From Bdellovibrio sp. (GTDB lineage: Bacteria > Bdellovibrionota > Bacteriovoracia > Bacteriovoracales > Bacteriovoracaceae), in assembly GCA_016187935.1 (NCBI GenBank), contig JACPIU010000039.1, positions 1-59,265 of the forward strand: a DNA stretch of 59,265 nucleotides. The letters are read 5' to 3'. Every line of letters starts with the position of its first letter. The stretch's first letter is position 1. The notes under the pieces are model-generated. The model ran no database searches and had not been told where the DNA came from. It saw only the letters and a program-made list of their open reading frames with translations. The position numbers and the translations under genes were made by a program. Shown here piece by piece: positions 35,178 through 58,794 of this stretch.

Positions 35178-37403
35178 CTAAGGGGATGGGCAAAACGCAT
35201 GTGCGGTTGAAAAACTGATATTTTGCGCACCTGATCCACCGGCGGATGCAGGTTGGTTAGTGCAGGATCCATCAGTTCCGGCATTCCCTCCGACCACATT
35301 ACCACTGAAGTTTGCAAAATCCATACAGCTTTTAACCGCGACATATCCTCCGCCCCCTCCACCACCCGGACAGTAAATACTTGCACCGCCGGAACCACCC
35401 TTTGCTTCACCATTGACTGTTGCAACGTTAGAGTATTGCGTATAGATGTGGATGCCGCCGCCGGCACCTCCTCCTCCTCCGTTCCATGCGGGGGTGACTC
35501 CGCCATCAAATCCATTCGCTTGCACATTCATTGCTCCGGTTCCACTTCCGATAATTTCTCGGGCAAAAATCATGACGATACCGCCGCCTATGCCTCCTGA
35601 CTGGGCCGCGGTAATGTTCGCAGGACTCCGACCATGCCCTCCCGAAGCACCCATGATGAGGGATTTTGGGTGGGTTATATAGTTGAAGGGTAGCCCCCCT
35701 TTCCCTTTTGCATTTCCTGCGCCACCTCCATAACCACCATAACCACCGCTACCGACGTGGGCGCCCCCGCCCCCGCCTGCATTTCCACTACTAAGGTCTG
35801 TTCCAACACCACCACCCATTCCAAGAGGAGCATCACATCCGCCTGCGCCACAATTACTCTGGGTGAATCCATCCACTCCGACTCCTTGAAACTTCGGAGT
35901 TACTGAGGTGCCGCCGATATTGTCATCGGCCGGGTAACCGCTACCACTTTGGGCCAATTGCAGCGTAGCACTGCTATTAATTGTCAAACGATCTTTAACC
36001 CGAATGGCCATGATTCCCCCATGGCCGGTTGAACCGACCCCAGAACCGCCAAGTCTGAATGCTTCTGTCCCCAATGAGGCCGTGCCTGATGTGCTGACTG
36101 TTAAAGTTTTAAAATTAGGAATACGCATGACTTGCATCACGCATTGTGCATCCCCTGAGCCGTTAGCAAAAGCGAGAGAGTTGCCAAGATTAGATACTGT
36201 CGTTGGGAAGGCGTGATCAATGGTGATTGTTAAGCCCCCTTCATTAACAGCGCTGATTAGAGCAGTTCCATAACTTCCTTTTGAAAGGTGATTATCCGCC
36301 TCGCTGTCACACGCTAAAGGCCCAGTTGCAATCGGCACATGCCAGAGGACTTCATCTCCTTCTGCAAAATCTTCGGGGTCATTAAACGCTCCTAGGAGTG
36401 TTAATACCGAGGAATTGCCATCAGAAGTAATTCCCGTGATTCGTCGACTGGCAGACCATGTTTTGTTAATAGGAGAAGGAGTAGCAGGGCGCACAAAAGA
36501 ATCCGTGTTAAGATTGACTGTTATCGGCGCACCGCTAATGAGTAAATCCCCATCTGCACCATTCCCAAAAAATGTAAGATCCCCTCCACCATTCGCCTGT
36601 CCATGCTGCATGAAGAACACCAATTGATTTGCACCTTCGAACAGCTTGCCATGCGGTTCCTTGGCCCCGTTGAGGCCGAAAAGATAGTATTTGGTAACGT
36701 GATCACCTGAACAACCCCCGCCGGAGTAGGCCTCGATATACACCCGCGGAGATTCAGGACCACCATTGCCTGGGTGAATGTGGAGATCAGTCGAGGCACC
36801 GCTCGCGCTAATAGTATGGCATTCGCTAGTGAGTGAATCAGGCGCAAACTCTCCGATCTCCAATTCGGAGCGGGGAAAGTAAGAGGGAAGGATAACCTTG
36901 AAAGAATGAGTTTCCCCCAGATAGGCATTCTCACATAGATCGGAGGCCGCCGTCGCCAAGGCGATAGACCTACAGGTGACCAGCTTTAAAGGTTTAAATT
37001 GATGAAGTGTCCCGGCGTTATCGTATTCCCCCCCGCAGTTAGTGGTCAGATGAATCGGCACATCAACGTCGCCGCTTTGGAAGGCGATATCATCATGTTT
37101 TCCACAGCGAGTAATACCTTCAAACATATTGGCCCCATCCCAGGCGATGACTTTAAAGTTCCACACCCCTGGTTTTAAGGGCAGTGTAATTTCCCGTCCG
37201 TCACCCGCAATATGGGCACCAAAAGTTAAACCAAAAGTTTTGTTGCGGCCCCAGATATAGACGCCTTTTAAGACCGGGCCTCCGGCCGCCGATGCGCCCA
37301 AGTTGATGCGAACTTTGCCCGACGGAGTTGATTTGCGGGCGCAAGCTGTCCACCAACTGGACAATAACGCCAAACTTACTAGGAGTATGATATTAATACG
37401 CAT
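35178..37403 (-). CDS. Glycine-rich surface lipoprotein, paralogue of the two giant lipoproteins
   Basis: The 741-residue protein starts with a signal peptide and the Cys21 region W-T-A-C. Residues about 28-290 share the N-terminal domain of the two giant proteins at 50747-58794: a G-x-W-N-F-K-V-I-A-W-D-G segment, G-I-T-R-C-G, P-L-K-L-V-T-C and S-F-K-V-I. From about residue 430 the sequence becomes Gly-rich (G-G-Y-G-G-Y-G-G and similar), like collagen-like or glycine-rich adhesins. It is the last gene of a three-gene operon and overlaps the barrel gene by 11 bp. A surface adhesin or matrix role is inference. Confidence 0.85.
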   Translation of the reverse strand: MRINIILLVSLALLSSWWTACARKSTPSGKVRINLGASAAGGPVLKGVYIWGRNKTFGLTFGAHIAGDGREITLPLKPGVWNFKVIAWDGANMFEGITRCGKHDDIAFQSGDVDVPIHLTTNCGGEYDNAGTLHQFKPLKLVTCRSIALATAASDLCENAYLGETHSFKVILPSYFPRSELEIGEFAPDSLTSECHTISASGASTDLHIHPGNGGPESPRVYIEAYSGGGCSGDHVTKYYLFGLNGAKEPHGKLFEGANQLVFFMQHGQANGGGDLTFFGNGADGDLLISGAPITVNLNTDSFVRPATPSPINKTWSASRRITGITSDGNSSVLTLLGAFNDPEDFAEGDEVLWHVPIATGPLACDSEADNHLSKGSYGTALISAVNEGGLTITIDHAFPTTVSNLGNSLAFANGSGDAQCVMQVMRIPNFKTLTVSTSGTASLGTEAFRLGGSGVGSTGHGGIMAIRVKDRLTINSSATLQLAQSGSGYPADDNIGGTSVTPKFQGVGVDGFTQSNCGAGGCDAPLGMGGGVGTDLSSGNAGGGGGAHVGSGGYGGYGGGAGNAKGKGGLPFNYITHPKSLIMGASGGHGRSPANITAAQSGGIGGGIVMIFAREIIGSGTGAMNVQANGFDGGVTPAWNGGGGGAGGGIHIYTQYSNVATVNGEAKGGSGGASIYCPGGGGGGGYVAVKSCMDFANFSGNVVGGNAGTDGSCTNQPASAGGSGAQNISFSTAHAFCPSP

Positions 37404-46375: not shown

Positions 46376-48940
46376 TTGGAAACAAAAAATAGTTTTCTGG
46401 ATTTGAAGTCTCCTCTAAGTGGAATCACGCTTCCGATCGAGGAAGTTCCCGATCAGGTTTTCGCAGGCAAAATGGTGGGAGACGGAATTGGAATTGATCC
46501 TGTTGAAAATCTTTTAACTTCTCCCTGTAAGGGCAAAGTCGTCCAATTGCACTCTGCTCATCATGCCATTACTATTCAATCGGAAAATGGCAACCAAATT
46601 CTTCTGCACATCGGACTGGATACGGTTAATTTAAAAGGCAAGGGATTTCGTCCTCTGGTCAAGGTTGGCGATTATGTGCAAGAAGGACAAGAGTTGATCG
46701 AATTTGATCCTGACTTGATTGCCTCTTCTGGTATGTCTCTTGTCTCTGTCATGGTGCTTATTAATGATCCCAAGGTGACAAAATTTGAATACCGTTTTAA
46801 TCATGGCAGCAAAGTCACACGCGGAAGATCCTCGCTGGCCACCTTGAACTTTAATCAAAAAGGGGAAATGGCAAGAAGCGTTTCCAAGCAGAATTTCAAC
46901 GACGTGGTTTTTGAATCTGTCCCCTTCCAAGTTAGACTTCCTGCCGGCATGCATGCCCGGCCGGCCGCCCGTTTGGCAGAACTTTCAAAAAACTTTCGAT
47001 GTGATATTGATCTTGTCAAAGGCAATCAAAGTGCCCCGCTTTCCAGTATCGTTTCGGTGCTCTCTCTTGCCATCGGCAAGGATGATGAAATCATCGTTGT
47101 TGCCGTCGGCCCGGATGCTCCCCAGGCGGTCAAAGCCGTTCTTGCAGCACTGGTAGAAATTGAAGAAAAAGAACTTGAGACATTTCACAAGGAAAACGTG
47201 TTACAGAGCAATACGGCGCAGCCCCTCATCCAAAGTAATGAGAAAACTTTTATCGGTGTCAGTGCCTCTGATGGCATCGTCATGGGAAACATGGCCCATA
47301 TCAAACAGGAAAAATTCAACTATTCCGAAAAGTCATCTGATGCCAAGAATGAATTGAAGAGGCTTGAAACGGCTTTGCAACAGGCCATCTTCGAACTCAA
47401 GCACCTTGAAGAGGAAATGCAAGGCAATCCTGCCAATACGAACAAGGCCGCCATCTTCAGTGCCCATCGGACGATGCTTGAAGATCCGGAACTGCTTGAT
47501 GAAGTGGTTTCTTTAATCAATCGCGGTTATTCCGGTGCCTATGCCTGGGATCATACAATACAGTCCAAACGCCAGAGACTTCTCGGTTTGAAGAATGAAT
47601 TAATTGCCGGCCGGGCCAATGACCTGAGGGATATTGGGAACAGAGTCTTAAGAATTCTTCTGGGAGTTAAGCAAAAGAGTCTCGCTCCTATGGAAAACGT
47701 CATTTTAGTCGCAGAGGACCTGACGCCTTCAGATACGGCACAATTTGATAAGAATAAAATTCTCGGGTTTGCAACGACGACAGGTGGGGCAACATCCCAT
47801 GTTGCTATTCTGGCCAGGTCTATGGGGATTCCGGCCATCGCGGGAATTGAAAAACGGGCGCTGGAGATTCCTGAAGGAAAATTGGTGGTGTTGGATGCCG
47901 ATAATGGGGCCTTGTTTCTTGATCCCAATGATGAACTTCAAAAAGAAGTTAAACGCAAGCAATTGATGCGTGAACAAAAAAGGCTTGAAGCTTTGCGTGA
48001 TTCTGCCATGCTGGCCAGTACCTTGGACGGACATCGCATCGAGGTCGTGGCGAATATTAGCGGTCTGAGTGATGCCAAAAATGCCATCGAGGTTGGGGCC
48101 GAGGGAGTTGGTCTTCTGCGAACGGAATTTCTCTTTTTGGATCGGGAACATGCCCCGTCGGAAGAAGAGCAAGTGGAAATCTATCAAAGTATTGCTGATG
48201 CCATGAAAGATCGACCGCTGATCATTCGAACTATGGATGTAGGCGGTGACAAGGCCTTGGCCTACCTCCCGATGCCCCATGAAGAAAACCCTTTCCTGGG
48301 AGTTCGTGGTATCCGTTTGAGTTTGAAAAAATCGGCCCTTTTTAGGCAACAGTTGCGCGCTATTTTAAAAGTGAAGGGACATTCAGACATCCATGTCATG
48401 CTCCCCATGATTGGACAACTAGAGGAACTGATTGAGGCCAAGGGTATTTTGGAAGAAGAGCGACAAAAATTAAACGCCCCCAGGATAAAAGTGGGCATCA
48501 TGATCGAAGTTCCCTCCGCTGCTGTGATGGCATCCCAATTCGCTTTGCATGTGGACTTTTTTTCAATCGGAACCAACGATTTAACTCAATATACTCTGGC
48601 CATGGATCGCGGCCATAACGAACTCGCTCAGCAGGTGGATGGACTTCATCCAGCGGTTCTTCATCTGATTGAAATGGCCATCAAAGGTGCTCATCAGCAT
48701 GGGAAGTGGGTGGGCATTTGTGGTGGCACCGCCAGTGAATTGAAGGCCGTTCCGATTCTTTTGGGATTGGGTGTGAACGAATTGAGCTTATCAGTTCCCA
48801 ACATTCCCCTGATTAAGGCCTTGATTCGAAAACTCGATAGAAGGCAATGTGAAAAAGTGGCACTTGATGCCCTGAAATTAACAAATGGAAAAGAGGTAAG
48901 AGAATTGGTCAATCGTCATTGGCCGGACTTATTATCGTAA
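46376..48940 (+). CDS. nagF: PTS IIA(Glc)-HPr-Enzyme I fusion (NagF-like)
   Basis: The 854-residue protein joins three PTS parts. Residues about 10-150 are IIA(Glc) type with active His78 in L-H-I-G-L-D-T-V. Residues about 180-265 are HPr with His193 in G-M-H-A-R-P-A. The HPr lacks the R-K-x-S-M Ser site of Gram-positive regulation. The rest is Enzyme I with His475 in G-A-T-S-H-V-A-I-L and a conserved Cys in I-C-G-G-T-A-S-E. Phosphate passes from PEP through EI, HPr and IIA to the IIB domain of the next gene. TTG 46376 is the likely start; no ATG fits the frame nearby. Gene order and the partner point to amino-sugar uptake. Confidence 0.94.
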
Positions 48941-48956
48941 AAAAAGGGAGTCATTT

Positions 48957-50708
48957 ATGGACATCGGAAAATCATCGTTTTCCTTACTACAAAGCATAGG
49001 GAAGGCCCTTATGCTGCCGGTTTCGGTATTACCCGTTGCCGGTATTCTTTTGGGAGTTGGTGCCGCCAAATTTGCTTGGATGCCCGCCATTGTTTCCCAA
49101 CTCATGGAACAATCAGGGGGAGCCGTGTTTGGTTCAATCCCACTGATTTTTGCCATCGGTGTGGCCCTCGGCCTGACAAAAAATGATGGCGTCAGTGCTC
49201 TTGCCGCCACCGTCGGTTATTTCATTCTTCTCAGTACGATGGGAGTGATGGCCAAATTCATGGGGAATCCCAGCGATGCTATCATGGGTGTTCAGTCGAT
49301 CAATACCGGCGTATTCGGTGGAATCCTCATCGGTATGGTGGCAGGATTTCTTTTCAATCGTTATTACCGAATCCAATTGCCACCTTATCTCGGCTTCTTT
49401 GCCGGCAAGCGGTTTGTTCCCATCGTGACTTCTTTTGCGGCCATTTTTGCCGGGATACTCCTTAGCGTGGTATGGCCTCCTCTTGGCCTTGGAATCAAGG
49501 CGATGAGTTTATGGGCCGCCAATGAAAGTCCGGGCATCGCCTTCACCGTTTATGGTGTGATTGAACGCGCCTTGATCCCGCTCGGCCTTCATCATATCTG
49601 GAACGTTCCGTTCTTTTTTGAAATTGGTCATTACGTTGATCCTGCTACAGGAAAAGAAATTACCGGTGAAATTGCCCGTTATCTTCAAGGCGATCCGACC
49701 GCCGGAAACTTGGCGGGTGGATATCTTTTCAAGATGTGGGGTCTGCCTGCTGCTGCTCTTGCCATTTGGCATCAGGCACGGCCAGAAAACCGGAAAGTTG
49801 TTGGCGGCATTATGATTTCCGCTGCCTTAACATCATTTCTCACCGGAATTACCGAACCTATTGAGTTCGCCTTTTTGTTTGTCGCTCCGGTTCTGTATGG
49901 TTTTCATGCTCTTCTCTCTGGCGCGGCGTTCGCCCTGTGTGTTGCCTTAGGAATCAAACACGGAACGACTTTTTCCCATGGTTTAATTGACTATGTGGTT
50001 CTTTTTTCACGATCCAGTAATGCCTTGTGGTTCTTAGTTATCGGGCCGATGTGGGGATTGCTCTATTATGGCATTTTCACCGCTGTGATCAGAAAATTTG
50101 ATCTCAAGACACCTGGTCGCGAAGCTGATCTTGCTGTTGAGGAAGTCAGTGATCAGGAGACAGAACTCTCTCCATTACTGGTGAGGGCCTTCGGAGGAGC
50201 AAGCAATATTCGTTCACTTGATGCCTGTATTACGCGATTGAGGGTGGAAGTTGCGGATACTAATCTTGTCAATTCTGAAGAGCTTAAATCGTTAGGTGCT
50301 TCAGGAGTGGTCAAAATAGGCAACGGCGTCCAGGCCATTTTTGGCCCACGTTCAGAGAATTTGAAAACGGATATGGAAATTTATTTGGCATCAGGAGCAA
50401 AAGGCTCCCCCAAATTGTCACAGACCACGCCAGTGCAGGGTTCGACCAAATTTTCTGTTACGGAAGCGGCCACAGTCGATGCGAAAAATATGGCGGCCGG
50501 TATTCAGAAGGCCTTGGGTGGAACTCATAATCTCAAATCTTGTCAGGTCGTGGCCAAAACACGCCTGAGAGTTGAAGTGGCCAACGAGTCCATGCTGAAT
50601 TTGCAGGCCCTTGAACAAAGCGGCGTCCAAGCGGCGGTCAATATCCGTCCAGGCGTTTATCACTTAATTGTTGGAGTCAATGCTCCGGCCATTGGTGAGC
50701 ACTTCTAG
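48957..50708 (+). CDS. nagE: PTS IIC-IIB permease with duplicated IIB domain (GlcNAc/glucose family)
   Basis: Residues about 1-380 are the IIC membrane domain (about ten spans) of the glucose/GlcNAc family, with [14 protein letters not shown] and the G-I-T-E-P-I-E-F sugar-site motif. Residues about 400-470 form IIB with active Cys424 in D-A-C-I-T-R-L-R. Residues about 505-580 are a second IIB-like copy in which Ala533 stands where Cys should be (A-K-T-R-L-R); a Cys529 lies four residues earlier. The second copy is probably inactive. The gene lies 16 bp after the IIA-HPr-EI gene. GlcNAc as substrate is inference from family and from the ROK kinase. Confidence 0.93.
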
Positions 50709-50746: not shown

Positions 50747-53700
50747 CTATGGAGTGATATTAGTAGCTTTAACATTTTGCAATACCCAATCCGGTGAGAA
50801 TTGCACACCTCCGCCACTTCCACTTCCATTAGGCCAATGAACTTGACCGTAGACATTGGCATCATCAATCGTCAAACCACTGCAACCATCTGACCATTTT
50901 CTGGTCGAGGAATCAAAACAGTCGATGGCATAACCACTACCAGTACCGCTGCCGACGCTCACGATGCTGTAGGTGATTGCATTACCGCCGCCTCCCGACC
51001 CCGAACCAGAACCGCCATTGCCACTGTTGACCACGAGTAATGGGGAATTGCTACTGCCTCCTCCTGAGCCAATGCCTAATTGAGCGTCGTAGTTCGCACC
51101 CCAACATTGTACTTCAGTCGTGTCTAAGATTGCGCAGGTGTTATTTCCCCCTACCGCGATCTTGGTGACTGTGCCTAATAAACCATTGACAGCGCTTGGA
51201 GTGTCTTTGTCCGCATATGTCCCATCACCCAACTGGCCGTCAGTGTTTTTTCCCCAGCATTTGGCGGCAAAGTTATCGAGAGCACAAGTGTGGAATCCTC
51301 CTACAAAAACATCTGAACCGCTGCCGATGCCAAGGACAGTCGCAGGTACTAAACTGCCGCCTGATCCTGAGCCGATTCCTAGCTGGTACATAGAGTTGTC
51401 GCCCCAGCAATTAATGCTGCCATCATTGAGAGTAGCGCAAACGTGGGACTGTCCTGCGCCAATATTCATGATTCCTGACAGACCACCACCAGTGCCGACG
51501 GTGACAGGGACGAGACTGCCTGCGGTGTTATCATTACCCAATTGTCCTTCATAACCATCGCCCCAGCACTTCATGCTTCCCGAATCGAGAAGAGCACAGC
51601 TTGTTCCCCCTCCCACAGCAACGGCCATGACGCCGCTGCCAAGCCCGGTAACTCCCACGCCTGAACCTCTGCTTAGGGTGCTTCCATCTCCCAGTTGTCC
51701 ATACGAATTATATCCCCAACAGACAGCACCACCGCCAAGTGTCTTGACGCAAGTAGTTTTTCCTCCGGCCGAAATTGCGTTGGCGCCAGTAACTCCTTGG
51801 ACTATGACAGGATTATTGCGATTGGCAGTGCTTCCGTCTCCCAGTTGGTAATCCGAATTGTTACCCCAACACTGCACTGAACCGCCACTTTGGAGAGCGC
51901 ATGAATGGCCTTCTCCCGCCGCAATGGCGACAACACTTGATAAGTTTTGTACTTGCACAGGGACACTTTGAGTACTGTTGGTGCCGTCGCCTAATTGGCC
52001 GTATGAATTCATGCCCCAACAGAAAACGTCACCTGAGCCGCCCCCCGTGCCGACAACTGCACAAGCATGATTGAAGCCAACAGCAATATCGATGACATCC
52101 ATTAAGGTACCGTCCCCTGATCCAGAACCCCCCGTGCTCGATCCACTGCCGTTGGTGGCATAGAAATTAATTGTGAAGGTTTGCCCTGCAGAGAAACTTC
52201 CACTCTGAACCCAGACGCGGAATTTGTTGTTTCCGGTGCTCTCAACGACAGTACCGAAGCCACTGCCCGAGCTGCTCGGGCCAAGCAGCATACCATTTTG
52301 AATGTATCCCATACCATATCCGGTGCCAGAACCTCCTGTGCCTGATCCCGATAGCGCAAGTTCGATGACAGATGTTCCTACAAAAGTGTTCAGTGTCGCA
52401 AAAGGATTTTCCACCATTCCTAAGTTATAGCTTGTGCTAGCTCCGAAGCCCGAACCAACCACTCCCACAACTTGGTAGGTGCCACCACCACTGCCGGAGT
52501 TGTAATTTCCATTATTACAATGATTGCCGTATCGATTGGTGATCCAACCGGGACTACCGCCTGAGGCAAAAATGGCCAGACCCCGGTAGAATTCATCATG
52601 GGGGTCAGAGTTATTAATGTAACTCATGTTAGGATTTTGGGTGAAATAATTGATTTTAAATTTTCCGTTGGTACTCATGATCTCATTGGCATTTGACCCA
52701 CCTGATAGATACAGGTGGTTACCACTACTTCCGTTATTATTGGAATACTGAGTACCAGATGCGCCACCCGAACCATAGTTGGCACCATAACTGGAAGATT
52801 CAGAAATATCCCATGCCATGGTGAAATCGGTTTGATAGTTGTTAAAAGCGTCGATGATATCTTGATAGGATGATCCCCCCGAACCACTCAAAAAATTACC
52901 TGTTATCCAACGCGTCTCGGGATTAGTACCGCTACCGTAATCATTCATGATACCGCTACCAACGCCACTGCCGTAAATAGAGATTCGCATTCCATTAAAG
53001 GCCGGACCGGAGCCACTGGCATCAATTCTGAGGGGAACGCCAGAGATATAGGCCGAAGCCGCCGTGGGTAACGCAATATTTCCTTTTTTATCGCCATCAA
53101 AACTTGAGAGCCGAACTTTTGTGCGATTACCGGTGGCCATGATATTTTGGGCGTGCCATGACTCTACTGAGCTACCTGAGCCATCAGAATCATCATCCCA
53201 TCGGGAGACTTCAGAAGACCACAGTTGATAATCGGTGCCGTTTTTCTTTTTAAATCCTTGCAATGAGTGGCGGATGCTAACTTGTCCACCCCAACTTCCT
53301 GAGGAATAGCCAGCCGCTTCGAATTGGGTGTCGGTGATTGAGTTCACTTTGTAGTACAGTTCTTTTTCATTAAATCCACTTGTGTCGTTGTGAATATCAT
53401 ATTTGTAACCCGACTTTATATTTGTCGAGCAGTTGAACTCAATAATCTGATCGAGCGTGCTAGTCTGATTGAGTGTATCATCCACAAGAAGCGTGATTCG
53501 CTTTTCGAACATAGTACCACTCCCTGATCCTGATCCGGCCCAAGAGGGCATGACTTTCTGGCCTGGAGCAAATTGCAGAATTATGTTTTCCATATAATTC
53601 ATTGGTGTAGAAATACTGCCCGTTATGGGAATTGAGTTACAATCGGTATAGCCCCTTCGGTAAAGAATGCCACCGATGCCTGCGCCCACAAGTTCGGCGC

Positions 53701-55282
53701 GCAGAGACCCTATTGCACCGAGTTCGCGGTGACCATCGCTATGACTCGTATCAGGATCATCGAATCCAAATAAATCACCTTGCACTTGATAAAATTCAGA
53801 ATAATTATTTTGCATTCCCATATTGTCATCATGCTCGTGCATCGTGCTTTTTTCGTGATCTTTTTGAGTGATAAAACATCCGGCGCTTGCAGCACCAGAA
53901 CCACTGCCAGACTGGCACTGAATATCGACTGTCTGAGCGGCCAGGGCCGAATTGGCCACCCCGTATTCATTATCAATCAGGTAGAGGGAAGAGTAGCTTG
54001 GAGCGGGATTAGGACCACCATTCCATCCGCAAGTGGCCGCACCTGTGCCACCACAGGTTTTGGTAATGCTGGTCTGGTCACAAACGATATCGGGATAATT
54101 ATCCTTATTACAGGTGACGGTGATAAGCGTAATAGACCCGGCATCACAGTTGGGACCCTGGCTATTTGAGTAATCCGAAAGACAATGGGGGGGCTCATAA
54201 CCTCCCGTGCACTGAGTGCCAAGACAAGTCCAATCCTGGATTCTGGGACACGCCGGATTTCCTTTGTATCCCCCAGGAAGCCCGGGCACACTAACATTTT
54301 GGGTGTTACAATTAGGCGCTGAACTAGTAGAATCGCTGTACCCATCTTCATTGGTGTATTTGTAGATAACCCTCGTAAAGGTGAGGTCGGTTGATTGGGT
54401 GGTTGAGTAAGCACCGCTACCCGAACCGGCAAACGGGTTGGTTGTCGGCCATAGCTGGTAATCTTCCTTCTCGAGTGGGTTGGGGCCAAAAGTGGCGGTA
54501 TAATTTCTGCCGCTGACAAAATCGCCTGGGCCACCGATTCCGTTCGGGAATGGGTATTCACGCCAGTTTTCCGTGCAGTTCTCATCCGTAAAAGCGTGGA
54601 TACTGACGGGGAAGGCCACCGTTGCACCAATAGGCAGGCGAATGTTGCTGAAATAGACGGAGTCATTTTTGCGATGATTGACCAGTCCAGCTTGAGAAAT
54701 GCAGGTCGACCAGTGGCCCTCAGAAGGATCACTACTCTGAGAGCCGCGCATTTGAATTTTAAAAGACTTGGAGTTCCCCATATCTGCCGTAGGATGTTCG
54801 CACACGCTGTTGGCACTCGTGACTTTGACAAAGTTATTGCAACTCACGATTCGAAGTGGCAAAAATCCGTAGGTGGAATCATGATAACTGGCCTCAGCAA
54901 ATTGGGCGTTATTACAATTGACAACATTGACGTTGATAGAAACATTGGTGGCGCTACCATCGAGATTGGCACTACCGGTACCACAGCGAACTGTCCCTTC
55001 AAACACCCTTGGCCCTCGCCAGATAATCGCGTAGAATTCCCAGTTACCATTGTTAAGAGTTTTATCGACGCCTTCTGCTCCTTGCGCTATAGGCAATGTC
55101 CACTTCTCACTGCCATCGGTTTTTCTTCCGTACAGCATGCCTCCCCCGGCCGTTTCGGCAGAGGTGACAATGGCACCTAAGCTCAGGGATAGTTTGACTT
55201 GATTTCCCTTAGGCCCGCCACATGACGCTAGCCATATGGATACCATCAAGAGTACAACGCCTGAAACGTTCGTTTTTTTCAT
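50747..55282 (-). CDS. Giant RCC1-repeat lipoprotein with many Gly-Ser-Gly tracts
   Basis: The protein of about 1511 residues starts at ATG 55282 (M-K-K-T, as in its paralogue); a GTG at 55294 is also in frame. Lipobox L-A-S-C. Residues about 20-290 share the N-terminal domain of the paralogues (G-N-W-E-F-Y-A-I-I-W-R-G, V-R-C-G, P-L-R-I-V-S-C). The middle is unknown. Residues about 1062-1420 form seven RCC1 repeats (C-W-G-x-N-x-x-G-Q-L-G-D-G), enough for a complete propeller. At least 23 separate GSG or GSGSG tracts are spread from residue 290 on, with mixed Gly and Ser codons, some inside RCC1 blades. It is likely surface-exposed. Confidence 0.88.
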   Translation of the reverse strand: MKKTNVSGVVLLMVSIWLASCGGPKGNQVKLSLSLGAIVTSAETAGGGMLYGRKTDGSEKWTLPIAQGAEGVDKTLNNGNWEFYAIIWRGPRVFEGTVRCGTGSANLDGSATNVSINVNVVNCNNAQFAEASYHDSTYGFLPLRIVSCNNFVKVTSANSVCEHPTADMGNSKSFKIQMRGSQSSDPSEGHWSTCISQAGLVNHRKNDSVYFSNIRLPIGATVAFPVSIHAFTDENCTENWREYPFPNGIGGPGDFVSGRNYTATFGPNPLEKEDYQLWPTTNPFAGSGSGAYSTTQSTDLTFTRVIYKYTNEDGYSDSTSSAPNCNTQNVSVPGLPGGYKGNPACPRIQDWTCLGTQCTGGYEPPHCLSDYSNSQGPNCDAGSITLITVTCNKDNYPDIVCDQTSITKTCGGTGAATCGWNGGPNPAPSYSSLYLIDNEYGVANSALAAQTVDIQCQSGSGSGAASAGCFITQKDHEKSTMHEHDDNMGMQNNYSEFYQVQGDLFGFDDPDTSHSDGHRELGAIGSLRAELVGAGIGGILYRRGYTDCNSIPITGSISTPMNYMENIILQFAPGQKVMPSWAGSGSGSGTMFEKRITLLVDDTLNQTSTLDQIIEFNCSTNIKSGYKYDIHNDTSGFNEKELYYKVNSITDTQFEAAGYSSGSWGGQVSIRHSLQGFKKKNGTDYQLWSSEVSRWDDDSDGSGSSVESWHAQNIMATGNRTKVRLSSFDGDKKGNIALPTAASAYISGVPLRIDASGSGPAFNGMRISIYGSGVGSGIMNDYGSGTNPETRWITGNFLSGSGGSSYQDIIDAFNNYQTDFTMAWDISESSSYGANYGSGGASGTQYSNNNGSSGNHLYLSGGSNANEIMSTNGKFKINYFTQNPNMSYINNSDPHDEFYRGLAIFASGGSPGWITNRYGNHCNNGNYNSGSGGGTYQVVGVVGSGFGASTSYNLGMVENPFATLNTFVGTSVIELALSGSGTGGSGTGYGMGYIQNGMLLGPSSSGSGFGTVVESTGNNKFRVWVQSGSFSAGQTFTINFYATNGSGSSTGGSGSGDGTLMDVIDIAVGFNHACAVVGTGGGSGDVFCWGMNSYGQLGDGTNSTQSVPVQVQNLSSVVAIAAGEGHSCALQSGGSVQCWGNNSDYQLGDGSTANRNNPVIVQGVTGANAISAGGKTTCVKTLGGGAVCWGYNSYGQLGDGSTLSRGSGVGVTGLGSGVMAVAVGGGTSCALLDSGSMKCWGDGYEGQLGNDNTAGSLVPVTVGTGGGLSGIMNIGAGQSHVCATLNDGSINCWGDNSMYQLGIGSGSGGSLVPATVLGIGSGSDVFVGGFHTCALDNFAAKCWGKNTDGQLGDGTYADKDTPSAVNGLLGTVTKIAVGGNNTCAILDTTEVQCWGANYDAQLGIGSGGGSSNSPLLVVNSGNGGSGSGSGGGGNAITYSIVSVGSGTGSGYAIDCFDSSTRKWSDGCSGLTIDDANVYGQVHWPNGSGSGGGVQFSPDWVLQNVKATNITP
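51018..52098 (-). repeat. Seven RCC1 repeats (one complete beta-propeller)
   Basis: Seven units of about 50 residues share A-x-G-x-x-H-x-C-A-L, C-W-G-x-N and Q-L-G-x-G. Some have GSG or GSGSG added in the loop after Q-L-G or between blades, which makes the spacing uneven. RCC1 propellers usually mediate protein binding. Confidence 0.88.
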
Positions 55283-55440
55283 AAAAACGCCCACTGTTAG
55301 AAAAATAACACCGTAACTTTTCGGGACAATAAGTTAATTTCTATAGCATTAGTTTACGAAGCGAAGCGTTGGTTAGGTAGTATGGTTTTCAATTGTTTAT
55401 AGGGACTTAAAATTACAGGTTTTTTTCGATAGATGACATT
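55283..55440 (-). promoter_or_regulatory. Upstream leader shared with the paralogous gene
   Basis: About 140 bp upstream of the RCC1 lipoprotein gene resemble the region upstream of the 55648-58794 gene (58795-58940). The best block, on the minus strand, contains CTATAGAAA and then TGTCCCGAAAAGT. TATAGA may be the -10 box; no clear -35 box is seen. Confidence 0.6.
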
Positions 55441-55593
55441 CCTGCTGTTAATTAAAAGATGTTTAGAGTGACCATAATTTGTGTAAACTGGACCACAAGC
55501 GTGGTGTTGGATTGGATCAAGTAGTTTGAATGATTACCCGATTATTAATCTTATGTGGACTGCCCGGCGCAATGATATGTAACTATATGGAAT
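55441..55593. other. Spacer between the two giant lipoprotein genes
   Basis: AT-rich sequence with a small hairpin (ACCAC-AAGC-GTGGT around 55492-55505). No gene is visible. With the leader and the 46-bp repeat it makes up a gap of about 350 bp. Confidence 0.45.
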
Positions 55594-55639
55594 TAAATAA
55601 TATTTTGAAGTATTTTCACCATTAGGGTGGTCCAGTTTT
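55594..55639 (+). repeat. Dispersed 46-bp repeat, copy 2
   Basis: Matches 5541-5586 with one mismatch (55615). It lies 8 bp from the stop codon of the 55648-58794 gene, on its 3' side. The GC hairpin CACC-ATTAG-GGTG is kept; the AT palindrome is slightly weaker than in copy 1. Confidence 0.8.
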
Positions 55640-55647
55640 TTCATTAT

Positions 55648-58600
55648 TTAAGGCAAGTTGCTCGAATTGAGCAACCAGTCAACACTGAATTCATTTACAT
55701 CAAAAGGCGAATTTACCAAATTGATGTTGGTCGGATTGGGCACTGAGCAACTTCCAATGCTGCCATCATACTGCAAACAGGAGGGAGAAATGCTGGAATA
55801 ACTTGAGACACCTGTAACCGGATGACCGTTAACATAGATACTCTGGGCCGAAACCGGGGTATCGGTTGGGTTGGCAATTTTGATATTACAGGAAGTGGAG
55901 TTAAAGACAGTTACCGGCGTCGAATTGATATCGATCTCCAAACCCGTACCAAAATCTCGGCAGTCATATAAATAAATGTCTTGTAGGAACATTGTAATGT
56001 TACCAGGGAGAATTGAATTGGCGGGGGCGCCATTTAAAAAATACTTCGCACTAGAACTGTATATTGGGGAATATCGCTGTTTGGTTGAGGCAAATAATTC
56101 ACTGCCTGAACCAACTGCCCCGAGATTGGTGTTGATTATGCCCACAAATGATTCAGATGATGTTATGGGATAGGAGGAGCCTATTTGATTAACATCCGAT
56201 TGGTAACCCGAACCCGTAGAAATGGCCGTGGGAGTATCTGTATCAACATTGGTGAGTTCATATATGAGACCGTTAGCATTTTGATAATCACTGGAATAAA
56301 TAAAAATGTTGTTATCAAACTGCACATAAGGCAAGCGTGGTTTGCTGATGTTTCCAAAAAAACTACTCTCAGAAAAGAGAACCTTCGCTTCCGTGGTGTT
56401 GCCGCGAACCAGAAGATTATTGCCGCGCCAATTTAGCTTGCCCGAACCAGAACCCATTTCGGCGATATTGCCCACGCTTTCAGAGGGGAGCACTCCATAG
56501 AATCCACCGCCGGACCCTGACCCTCCACTGCCCGAACCCGAACCTGTGCTACCGTAAGAATAAGTACTACCTTCAACTCTCGACTGCCAAATGGCATACT
56601 CGTTTGTATTCATTTTTTCTGCTCGAACACGCGAACGATAATCGCTGTTTGAACCAGTTTGATGTGACTTAACAAATTCGATTTTGGCGCTACTTAAGTT
56701 ATTGGTGTCATAATAGGCCTCTTCTTTTTCCCGTGAAAGTTTTCCGTCACTTTCATATTCATCCCAATTGCTCCAGATATGACCGGTTTTCAGATTGGTG
56801 GTGCAATTGTAGTGATAGATCCAGCGCAACGATGCAAGTGTACCGGGTGTCGTTTCATGTAAGGTTATTTTTTTCTCAAAAGAACCGCCCCCGGAACCTG
56901 ATCCGAATGCAGGCATGGTGACGGTCTCGTAAGGCGCATATTCGTTAGGAGCATTGCCAACGTCAAAAGACAGATAGAAAGATCGCGTTTGGCCCTCTTC
57001 AATAAAGCTAATTGCGGAGGTCTGCCCACTGCTTGGAATGGAAGCGCAGGTTGTGTATCCGAGATTCCACAAGAATCCGCCGATACCGTCTCCGATCAAC
57101 ATCTCCCTAATATTGCCGATCATCCCCACTTCGATATAATCATCGTCGTTACTTCCATACATTGAATTACAGGTGACAACTTCTGAGGGAAAAGCTTGGC
57201 GCCAATTCACAGTATAGCTGGAACCCGATCCACTTCCGCTTCCTGTCACGGTCACCGTGCTTTTCTGAATGCAACTTTGTACATTGTTTCGCCAACTTTT
57301 TTCGCCATCGAAAGTTCCAAAGACATCCGAAGCGGCACCGCGGACGGCGCCATTGATCCCCGGCCCTGAACTCCCACTGCCACTGCCAGAACCGTCGGGA
57401 ATCCACATGGGGACACAGTGCCCGCTACCGCACTTGAAATCCGGTGCTTGAGCAACAAAAGGAGTTCCTGCAGAGGCGAAAATATTATCTGCCAGGTAGA
57501 GTGAAACAAACTGGGGAGCATTTGTGCCGAATCGACAGGATAGTCCCTCCCCACCGCAATTGATCGATTCAGAGCCCTTTAACTCACAAATAAGAGGGTT
57601 GAGATAATTTACTCCATCGGCCTTGCAGGAAACGCGATAGAGTTTAATCGTCCCGGCATCGCAATTGGGCCCGTTGTCATTAGAGTAATCACCAAAGCAT
57701 TTTGCCTCACTTCCGCCTCCGAAACCCGAACCGACAAAGGTGACGGCACCATTTCCTATTGCAGGACAAGTGCTGCTCGTTCCACCGTCAGCAGAAGTAT
57801 CCTGATTGCAGGCCGCCTTGAGATCGTCGGGCAGGGCATCGCAATTACAGCCTATTCCATTATATCCCTGCACATATTCAATATCGATGGCCATATAATT
57901 TGATTGAGTGGTGACGTACGATCCTGAACCATAAGGATTGCTGGTCACTTTCACAATGTGATCGACATCACCTGTCGACTTATAATTATCTGCCGCCAAA
58001 GCCAAGTTACTTCTTGGCACTCCTATCCCGCTTATAAAATCGTAATCACGATTAAATTTGGCCACCGTACAATTTTTATCATCGAAACTTTTGACTCTTA
58101 TGTCGATGGTCCCACTCGTGCCACCAATCGGAATCCTTACATTCGAGAAGAAAACAGAATCGGCCCTTTTGTGTTTGATTAAATTAGCATGAGAGATACA
58201 AGCGGAGGTTATGGCCTCTGTTCTGTCCGTTCCCACATAGCTCATCATAACAACCCTATAACTTTGGCCCATCCCGACCTTCTCCAAAGGGAAATTGCAG
58301 TTATCACTGCCACTTGAGATATCAAATAAATTGGTACAGGCGACTAAGCGCAAAGGGGCAATGCCATAGGTTGCGTCAGCGGTATAGGCCGCATTGGTTA
58401 TAGTGCTATTGCAATTGGCGGTGGCCAAGGATAACGATACATCCTTTTGCTCACCGGTTAATGATACTCCGGAAACAGAAGCGCATCGGACAGTCCCAGT
58501 TAAAGGTACGGCACCATCCCAGGCGATCATTTGGAAATTCCATGTGCCGTTGTTCATTTCACGAGAAAAGTTCGTTGTTCCGGCGGCAATGACCTGCGCC

Positions 58601-58794
58601 CACCGATCTCCGTTGGTGGTGTTTTGCCCGTAAACCATTCCTCCACCACTTACCGCTTCAGATGAAACAACCGCGCCTAAACGGAAGGAGAGTGCGACAT
58701 CAGACGAACCGCCTCCACCGCCGCAAGCTCCCACTAGGAGTAGAAATGGCATCCATAAAATCAGGCCAGTGTTTTTTTTTGCCGTCTTTTTCAT
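55648..58794 (-). CDS. Giant lipoprotein paralogue with Gly-Ser-Gly tracts
   Basis: The 1048-residue protein has a lipobox L-V-G-A-C with Cys24 and then five Gly. Residues about 30-290 are the family's shared N-terminal domain. The alignment with the RCC1 lipoprotein continues into the middle: G-P-N-C-D-A-G, I-G-G-(I/F)-L-x-x-x-G-Y-T, F-E-K-(K/R)-I-T-L and N-C-(S/T)-T-N. It lacks RCC1 repeats and ends in an unrelated C-terminal part. At least ten GSG/GSGSG tracts are present, the first at the same aligned place as in the RCC1 protein. Function unknown; surface display is likely. Confidence 0.85.
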   Translation of the reverse strand: MKKTAKKNTGLILWMPFLLLVGACGGGGGSSDVALSFRLGAVVSSEAVSGGGMVYGQNTTNGDRWAQVIAAGTTNFSREMNNGTWNFQMIAWDGAVPLTGTVRCASVSGVSLTGEQKDVSLSLATANCNSTITNAAYTADATYGIAPLRLVACTNLFDISSGSDNCNFPLEKVGMGQSYRVVMMSYVGTDRTEAITSACISHANLIKHKRADSVFFSNVRIPIGGTSGTIDIRVKSFDDKNCTVAKFNRDYDFISGIGVPRSNLALAADNYKSTGDVDHIVKVTSNPYGSGSYVTTQSNYMAIDIEYVQGYNGIGCNCDALPDDLKAACNQDTSADGGTSSTCPAIGNGAVTFVGSGFGGGSEAKCFGDYSNDNGPNCDAGTIKLYRVSCKADGVNYLNPLICELKGSESINCGGEGLSCRFGTNAPQFVSLYLADNIFASAGTPFVAQAPDFKCGSGHCVPMWIPDGSGSGSGSSGPGINGAVRGAASDVFGTFDGEKSWRNNVQSCIQKSTVTVTGSGSGSGSSYTVNWRQAFPSEVVTCNSMYGSNDDDYIEVGMIGNIREMLIGDGIGGFLWNLGYTTCASIPSSGQTSAISFIEEGQTRSFYLSFDVGNAPNEYAPYETVTMPAFGSGSGGGSFEKKITLHETTPGTLASLRWIYHYNCTTNLKTGHIWSNWDEYESDGKLSREKEEAYYDTNNLSSAKIEFVKSHQTGSNSDYRSRVRAEKMNTNEYAIWQSRVEGSTYSYGSTGSGSGSGGSGSGGGFYGVLPSESVGNIAEMGSGSGKLNWRGNNLLVRGNTTEAKVLFSESSFFGNISKPRLPYVQFDNNIFIYSSDYQNANGLIYELTNVDTDTPTAISTGSGYQSDVNQIGSSYPITSSESFVGIINTNLGAVGSGSELFASTKQRYSPIYSSSAKYFLNGAPANSILPGNITMFLQDIYLYDCRDFGTGLEIDINSTPVTVFNSTSCNIKIANPTDTPVSAQSIYVNGHPVTGVSSYSSISPSCLQYDGSIGSCSVPNPTNINLVNSPFDVNEFSVDWLLNSSNLP

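Follow-up and report, generated by a model that had tools for sequence, protein, structure and literature searches.

Short Gly-Ser tracts in two paralogous predicted lipoproteins of Bdellovibrio sp. probably represent flexible loops fixed early in the genus

Results

Two paralogous lipoprotein genes lie at the end of the contig

The window, i.e. the whole stretch of DNA analysed here (59,265 nucleotides), is an entire contig (C37) of a 4.4-Mb draft genome of Bdellovibrio sp. Two genes on the minus strand occupy its right end, and their products are referred to as proteins A and B:

50747-55294, minus strand: protein A, a predicted lipoprotein of 1515 aa (lipobox LASC) with 27 GSG-type tracts and RCC1 repeats
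54428-55294, minus strand: A residues 1-289, tract-free N-terminal lipoprotein domain, with N-terminal relatives in further genera of the family
51005-52111, minus strand: A residues 1062-1430, predicted RCC1 beta-propeller region of UVR8-like fold, from Pfam (~1062-1425), PDB and fold matches
55648-58794, minus strand: protein B, a predicted lipoprotein of 1048 aa (lipobox VGAC), a paralogue of A without RCC1, with 10 tracts
57931-58794, minus strand: B residues 1-288, tract-free N-terminal domain

Each protein opens with a hydrophobic signal followed by a lipobox whose cysteine can be read directly (LASC in A and GAC in B), the sequence criterion of a bacterial lipoprotein, and lipidation of both is predicted; the two are related and probably face the surface. 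Their description as paralogues in the first-pass annotation is borne out, with homology over the first ~750 residues at 36-41% identity. In A, RCC1 repeats were matched above the curated Pfam cut-off by PF00415 (E 1e-42, five stretches) and PF13540 (six stretches). In B, RCC1 repeats were not found, and no Pfam family matched over its 1048 aa. The C-terminal ends of the two proteins are similar (FSPDWVLQN in A and FSVDWLLN in B), suggesting that the RCC1 block may have been either inserted in A or lost from B.

The A gene is adjoined by a glucose PTS (46376-50708, plus strand) in which EIIA, HPr and enzyme I are fused and followed by EIIBC, and the PTS sequence also flanks the A/B pair in a second species of the genus (L096 in G001). 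Elsewhere in the window, a gene at 35178-37403 (minus strand) encodes a 741-aa protein with 7 GSG, which partially matches an AgmC gliding-motility model below cut-off (E 1e-12) and whose N-terminal segment is akin to B (30% over ~155 residues).

GSG tracts greatly exceed composition and genome background

The genus sample comprised three species, namely the own genome (G000), G001 (83%-complete) and G002. At least 23 tracts in one protein and 10 in the other had been reported by the first-pass annotation, and 27 in A and 10 in B were counted here. The first tract starts at residue 290 of A and residue 289 of B, so that the first ~290 residues of both are tract-free as claimed, and the alignment agrees that these two tracts occupy the same position. 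Under uniform placement, the chance of tract-free first 289 residues is 0.003 for A and 0.04 for B. The tracts are 9-42 bp long with imperfect codons and, as had been noted, codon use varies for both residues (GGT, GGC, GGA and GGG for Gly; TCA, TCG, TCT, TCC, AGT and AGC for Ser). The tracts are as follows:

54413-54427, minus strand: A 290-294 GSGSG; same site as B 289, also in A of G001 and G002; GTG in G001 B
57922-57930, minus strand: B 289-291 GSG; aligns with A 290
53894-53908, minus strand: A 463-467 GSGSG; site common to A, B and their G001 and G002 orthologues (all five)
57373-57393, minus strand: B 468-474 GSGSGSG; aligns with A 463; 13 residues in G001 B
53516-53536, minus strand: A 587-593 GSGSGSG, preceding FEKR; site in all five; other genera have an ordinary loop here
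56884-56904, minus strand: B 631-637 GSGSGGG; aligns with A 587
53174-53182, minus strand: A 705-707 GSG; site in all five
56503-56544, minus strand: B 751-764, 14 residues; aligns with A 705
57223-57243, minus strand: B 518-524 GSGSGSG; common to G001 B only
56440-56454, minus strand: B 781-785 GSGSG; common to G001 B
56104-56214, minus strand: B tracts 861-863 and 895-897
57421-57732, minus strand: B tracts 355-357 and 456-458
52763-53014, minus strand: six short A tracts, 761-844
52115-52495, minus strand: seven A tracts, 934-1060, upstream of the RCC1 region
52031-52045, minus strand: A 1084-1088 GGGSG, hairpin of an RCC1 blade, 2 of its 5 residues opening the following strand; missing in G001 and GSGSGSG in G002
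51317-51667, minus strand: A tracts 1210, 1219, 1308-1313 and 1324, between RCC1 strands
50984-51070, minus strand: A tracts 1409-1413 and 1427-1437, where the RCC1 region ends; the latter longer in G002
50807-50953, minus strand: A tracts 1448, 1452 and 1490-1496, close to the C-terminal end

Counted with overlaps, A contains 36 GSG triplets and B contains 20, against 4.7 and 1.9 expected from their own compositions. The resulting densities (~24 and ~18 per 1000 aa) are ~40- to 70-fold above the background in sampled stretches of the own genome (0.33-0.47 per 1000 aa). A genome-wide Gly/Ser bias equal to that of the two proteins, which the first-pass annotation had considered, is not what these stretches show, as their GSG counts stay about at the composition expectation (11 versus 11.4 expected in exported proteins, and 34 versus 25 in other proteins). 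The excess is also specific in its order: GSG is 8.4-fold over expectation, whereas GGS, SGG and GGG are only 2.1-fold over it. Within G-X-G, Ser is favoured 6- to 11-fold and Thr 2.4- to 3.5-fold in the A lineage, while Ala and Asn are at ~1 or less; in B, Thr shows no enrichment (0.9-fold).

Tract sites are mostly conserved within the genus

In G002, the A orthologue is 66% identical and contains 23 tracts. Overlap with a G002 tract was found for 21 of the 27 A tracts, compared with 3.2 (maximum 11) under random placement and 8.0 (maximum 17) under Gly-anchored placement, and at the remaining six sites G002 mostly has G-T-G, G-A-G or G-V-G. When A, B and the G001 and G002 orthologues are aligned (five sequences), all carry a tract at A 463, 587 and 705, where the glycines form invariant columns, and four of them do so at A 290, the fifth having GTG. 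Because most A tracts stand at conserved positions of the orthologue, most of them are old within the genus. Thus, the possibility raised at the outset that orthologues carry the same tracts at conserved positions applies to these 21, but some tracts are species-specific. Confined to single lineages are NQSGSG in G001 A and the tracts at B 518 and B 781. In addition, several sites differ in length between species by steps of one Gly-Ser unit, and alignment gaps tend to lie next to tracts (7 of 16 gaps, against 3.5 expected, P 0.04). In another tract-bearing protein (L074 on C2), some tracts are common to G001 and G002 and others stand opposite gaps. Taken together, the alignments show that tract sites are largely fixed, with gain, loss and length change.

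The G002 A orthologue (L094 on G002:C1) has no adjacent B, while B and A lie side by side in G001; the best other match to the middle region in G002 is a 335-aa frame on C30. The G001 match to a tract-bearing 689-aa C7 protein (L161, G001:C242:14796-16853) contains four stop codons within the aligned part; the gene may be broken, or the alignment may run past its true ends. The alignment of a 1936-aa C12 protein with a G002 protein was discarded, as the two are not orthologous (23% identity).

Tracts lie at loops that are ordinary in other genera

A model of the RCC1 region based on two sequences (pTM 0.66, mean pLDDT 56) matches UVR8 and RCC1 (TM ~0.7), which supports a predicted propeller fold. 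It includes six tracts with 25 residues in total, only 2 of which are in strands (P 0.04), both at the start of the strand following the hairpin tract 1084-1088. The first-pass annotation had stated that tracts interrupt conserved RCC1 blades. They do fall within the RCC1 domain, but not in its conserved strands; they occupy, or border on, the hairpins and the loops that separate blades. For the N-terminal and middle regions, the model (A with B only, mean pLDDT 30) was set aside, and loop placement is by alignment only.

In 13 homologues of 24-35% identity, which belong to other genera of the family, GSG occurs 0-3 times each. The aligned sites in these proteins hold ordinary loop residues and vary in length; the clearest case is A 587, where PTGYPDAG, ASSGTYPYKN and LNSG precede a conserved FEKR-like segment. 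Given these ordinary, variable-length loops in the outgroups, the tract sites look like pre-existing variable loops that became Gly-Ser in the genus.

Codons and reading frame point to selection on the protein

Between A and G002, residue identity is 80% inside tracts, 52% in their immediate flanks and 66% elsewhere, although the Gly codon is the same at only 15 of 54 shared tract positions. No Ser switch between TCN and AGY codons was found at 21 positions shared with G002, as expected if the tracts were inherited and not re-inserted; in the comparison with G001, which is more distant, 4 of 12 positions have switched. In fetched loci, which were picked for matches to (GGNWSN)3GG whatever their frame, the sense-strand Gly-Ser frame accounts for 44 of 50 matches in the own genome and for 50 of 52 matches in G002. 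This reading-frame test is the strongest evidence for selection on the protein. Seeded GGNAGY-like DNA would show in all frames and outside genes, so the fixed frame does not support seeding, and the DNA of orthologues is not conserved at these sites. Therefore, between the two origins proposed by the first-pass annotation, the data speak for protein-level selection for flexible loops (residues kept, synonymous codons diverged and frame kept) and against a process seeding GGNAGY-like DNA.

Identical neighbouring Ser codons within tracts are in excess of shuffles in both the own genome (26 of 69 versus 15.2, P 0.002) and G002 (23 of 68 versus 13, P 0.002); for Gly codons, P is 0.005 and 0.28, respectively. 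This excess suggests that some of the tracts may have grown by duplication of 6-bp units followed by synonymous drift. A perfect GGATCA array encoding GSGSGSGSGSG lies in the proline-rich linker of a lipoprotein-like protein (L076, G000:C6:345512-345543) and is the only tract that looks like a recent microsatellite.

The tract habit is shared by exported proteins of the genus

A 20-base pattern for (G-S/T)3G was found 50 times in the own genome, 53 times in G002 and 32 times in the 83%-complete G001, whereas 22 further genera of the family have 0-19 occurrences each (median 2). Raised counts occur elsewhere in G021 (19) and in G050 of another family (28), where the reversed control is equal or higher. 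As the reversed pattern itself gives 15 matches in the own genome, 36 in G002 and 25 in G001, it is a weak control, and the weight is carried by the sister-genus comparison and the frame test. A 14-base pattern (GGNWSNGGNWSNGG) was too loose to inform (232 in the own genome versus 221 for its reversed control).

According to a home-made heuristic predictor, a signal peptide or lipobox is present in 15 of 21 (G-S/T)3G carriers versus 135 of 425 other proteins in the own genome (P 0.0005), and in 16 of 24 carriers versus 114 of 337 others in G002 (P 0.002). The own-genome carriers include four without a predicted signal and two classed as polytopic. A and B are the densest carriers among those seen, and the habit extends to dozens of other proteins of the genus, mainly exported ones. 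In a 463-aa protein (L080, G000:C14:49198-49319), Thr replaces Ser in a long Gly-Thr alternation (GTGTGTGTGTGTGTG).

Discussion

We consider it likely that the tracts are flexible loops of variable length that were fixed early in the genus, supplied in part by 6-bp units and kept by selection on the protein. Early in the genus, before or around the divergence of A and B, several existing variable loops would have turned into alternating Gly-Ser; these sites would then have been inherited in place, altered in length, and now and then gained or lost. Supply was probably in part by short tandem duplications, whose 6-bp Gly-Ser units leave the frame intact, and retention by selection on the protein is shown by the frame and codon evidence. 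The function of the tracts may be to provide flexible, hydrophilic spacers inside beta-rich modules and between them, outside the cytoplasm. The strict GSG alternation counts against such flexible loops, as it is stronger than plain flexibility needs; Asn, Ala or GG might have been expected more freely than seen.

A post-translational modification motif, e.g. for O-glycosylation of Ser (less often Thr) between glycines in exported proteins, would account for this strict alternation. Ser is strongly favoured in G-X-G and, in the A lineage, followed by Thr; GSG is used rather than GGS or GSS; and carriers are enriched in export signals, all of which agrees with it. In contrast, Thr is not enriched in B, the own-genome carriers without a predicted signal or classed as polytopic do not fit, and a plain hydrophilic spacer would likewise use Gly-Ser; we therefore regard such a motif as unlikely. 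The fuller form, in which GSG would be a genus-specific motif whose Ser is modified by a putative enzyme and the loops of the exported proteome were converted when that enzyme arose, is likewise improbable.

Three further origins are very unlikely. Insertion of GGNAGY-like DNA by a mobile micro-element or sequence-specific seeding would agree with tracts that are numerous in each genome but confined to one genus, with the species-specific NQSGSG of G001 A and with the excess of identical neighbouring codons, but is hard to reconcile with matches nearly all in one frame and on the sense strand, with Ser from both TCN and AGY codons, for which no single DNA motif accounts, and with nucleotides that are not conserved at shared sites. 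A hypervariable microsatellite whose slippage yields antigenic or length variation has in its favour the Gly-Ser-unit length steps between species and the one perfect GGATCA array, yet we give it very little credence, considering that the A and B tracts are short and imperfect, that 6-bp units are unable to switch frame and that most sites are conserved between species. Neutral drift of unconstrained loops to Gly-Ser fits the faster evolution of tract flanks and the occasional gain or loss of tracts, but is scarcely credible given residues inside tracts that are conserved above the rest despite synonymous codon turnover, and outgroup loops that are not Gly-Ser.

A literature search on RCC1 lipoproteins in Bdellovibrio and on Gly-Ser loops yielded no relevant work. 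Among known systems, polyserine linkers, which connect domains, are the nearest analogy to such a linker habit, specific to one lineage and seen in exported proteins. Those of Saccharophagus and Microbulbifer exported enzymes (PMC2386152, citing Howard et al. 2004) are lineage-specific low-complexity linkers, and the module tables of that paper place them between domains. As with these linkers, one composition recurs in many exported proteins of the genus and is rare in sister genera; unlike them, the Gly-Ser tracts are very short and also occur inside domains, with six within the RCC1 domain of A. For scattered in-frame additions, the nearest analogy is the Rickettsia palindromic elements in protein-coding genes (PMC10969869, citing Ogata et al. 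2000, 2002), which are mobile DNA repeats of ~150 bp that encode a conserved peptide. Both are short in-frame additions across many genes of one genus and apparently tolerated by the fold; the GSG tracts differ in lacking conserved DNA (codons diverge at shared sites and both Ser classes are used) and in keeping to one fixed reading frame.

In one genus, the loops of dozens of mainly exported proteins would thus have been recast in a two-residue alphabet, with outgroups representing the prior state and no new DNA element required. This would amount to a natural experiment on the uptake of flexible insertions by folded proteins, several of them within one propeller. If the tract serines were modified, they would point to a new protein modification system. 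As in RCC1/UVR8 beta-propellers, A has RCC1 repeats at ~1062-1425, but unlike them it bears added GSG tracts at loops. RCC1 matches number 35 in all in the own genome, and its other large RCC1-repeat proteins (on C1, C6, C7, C18, C28 and C42) contain 0-3 GSG.
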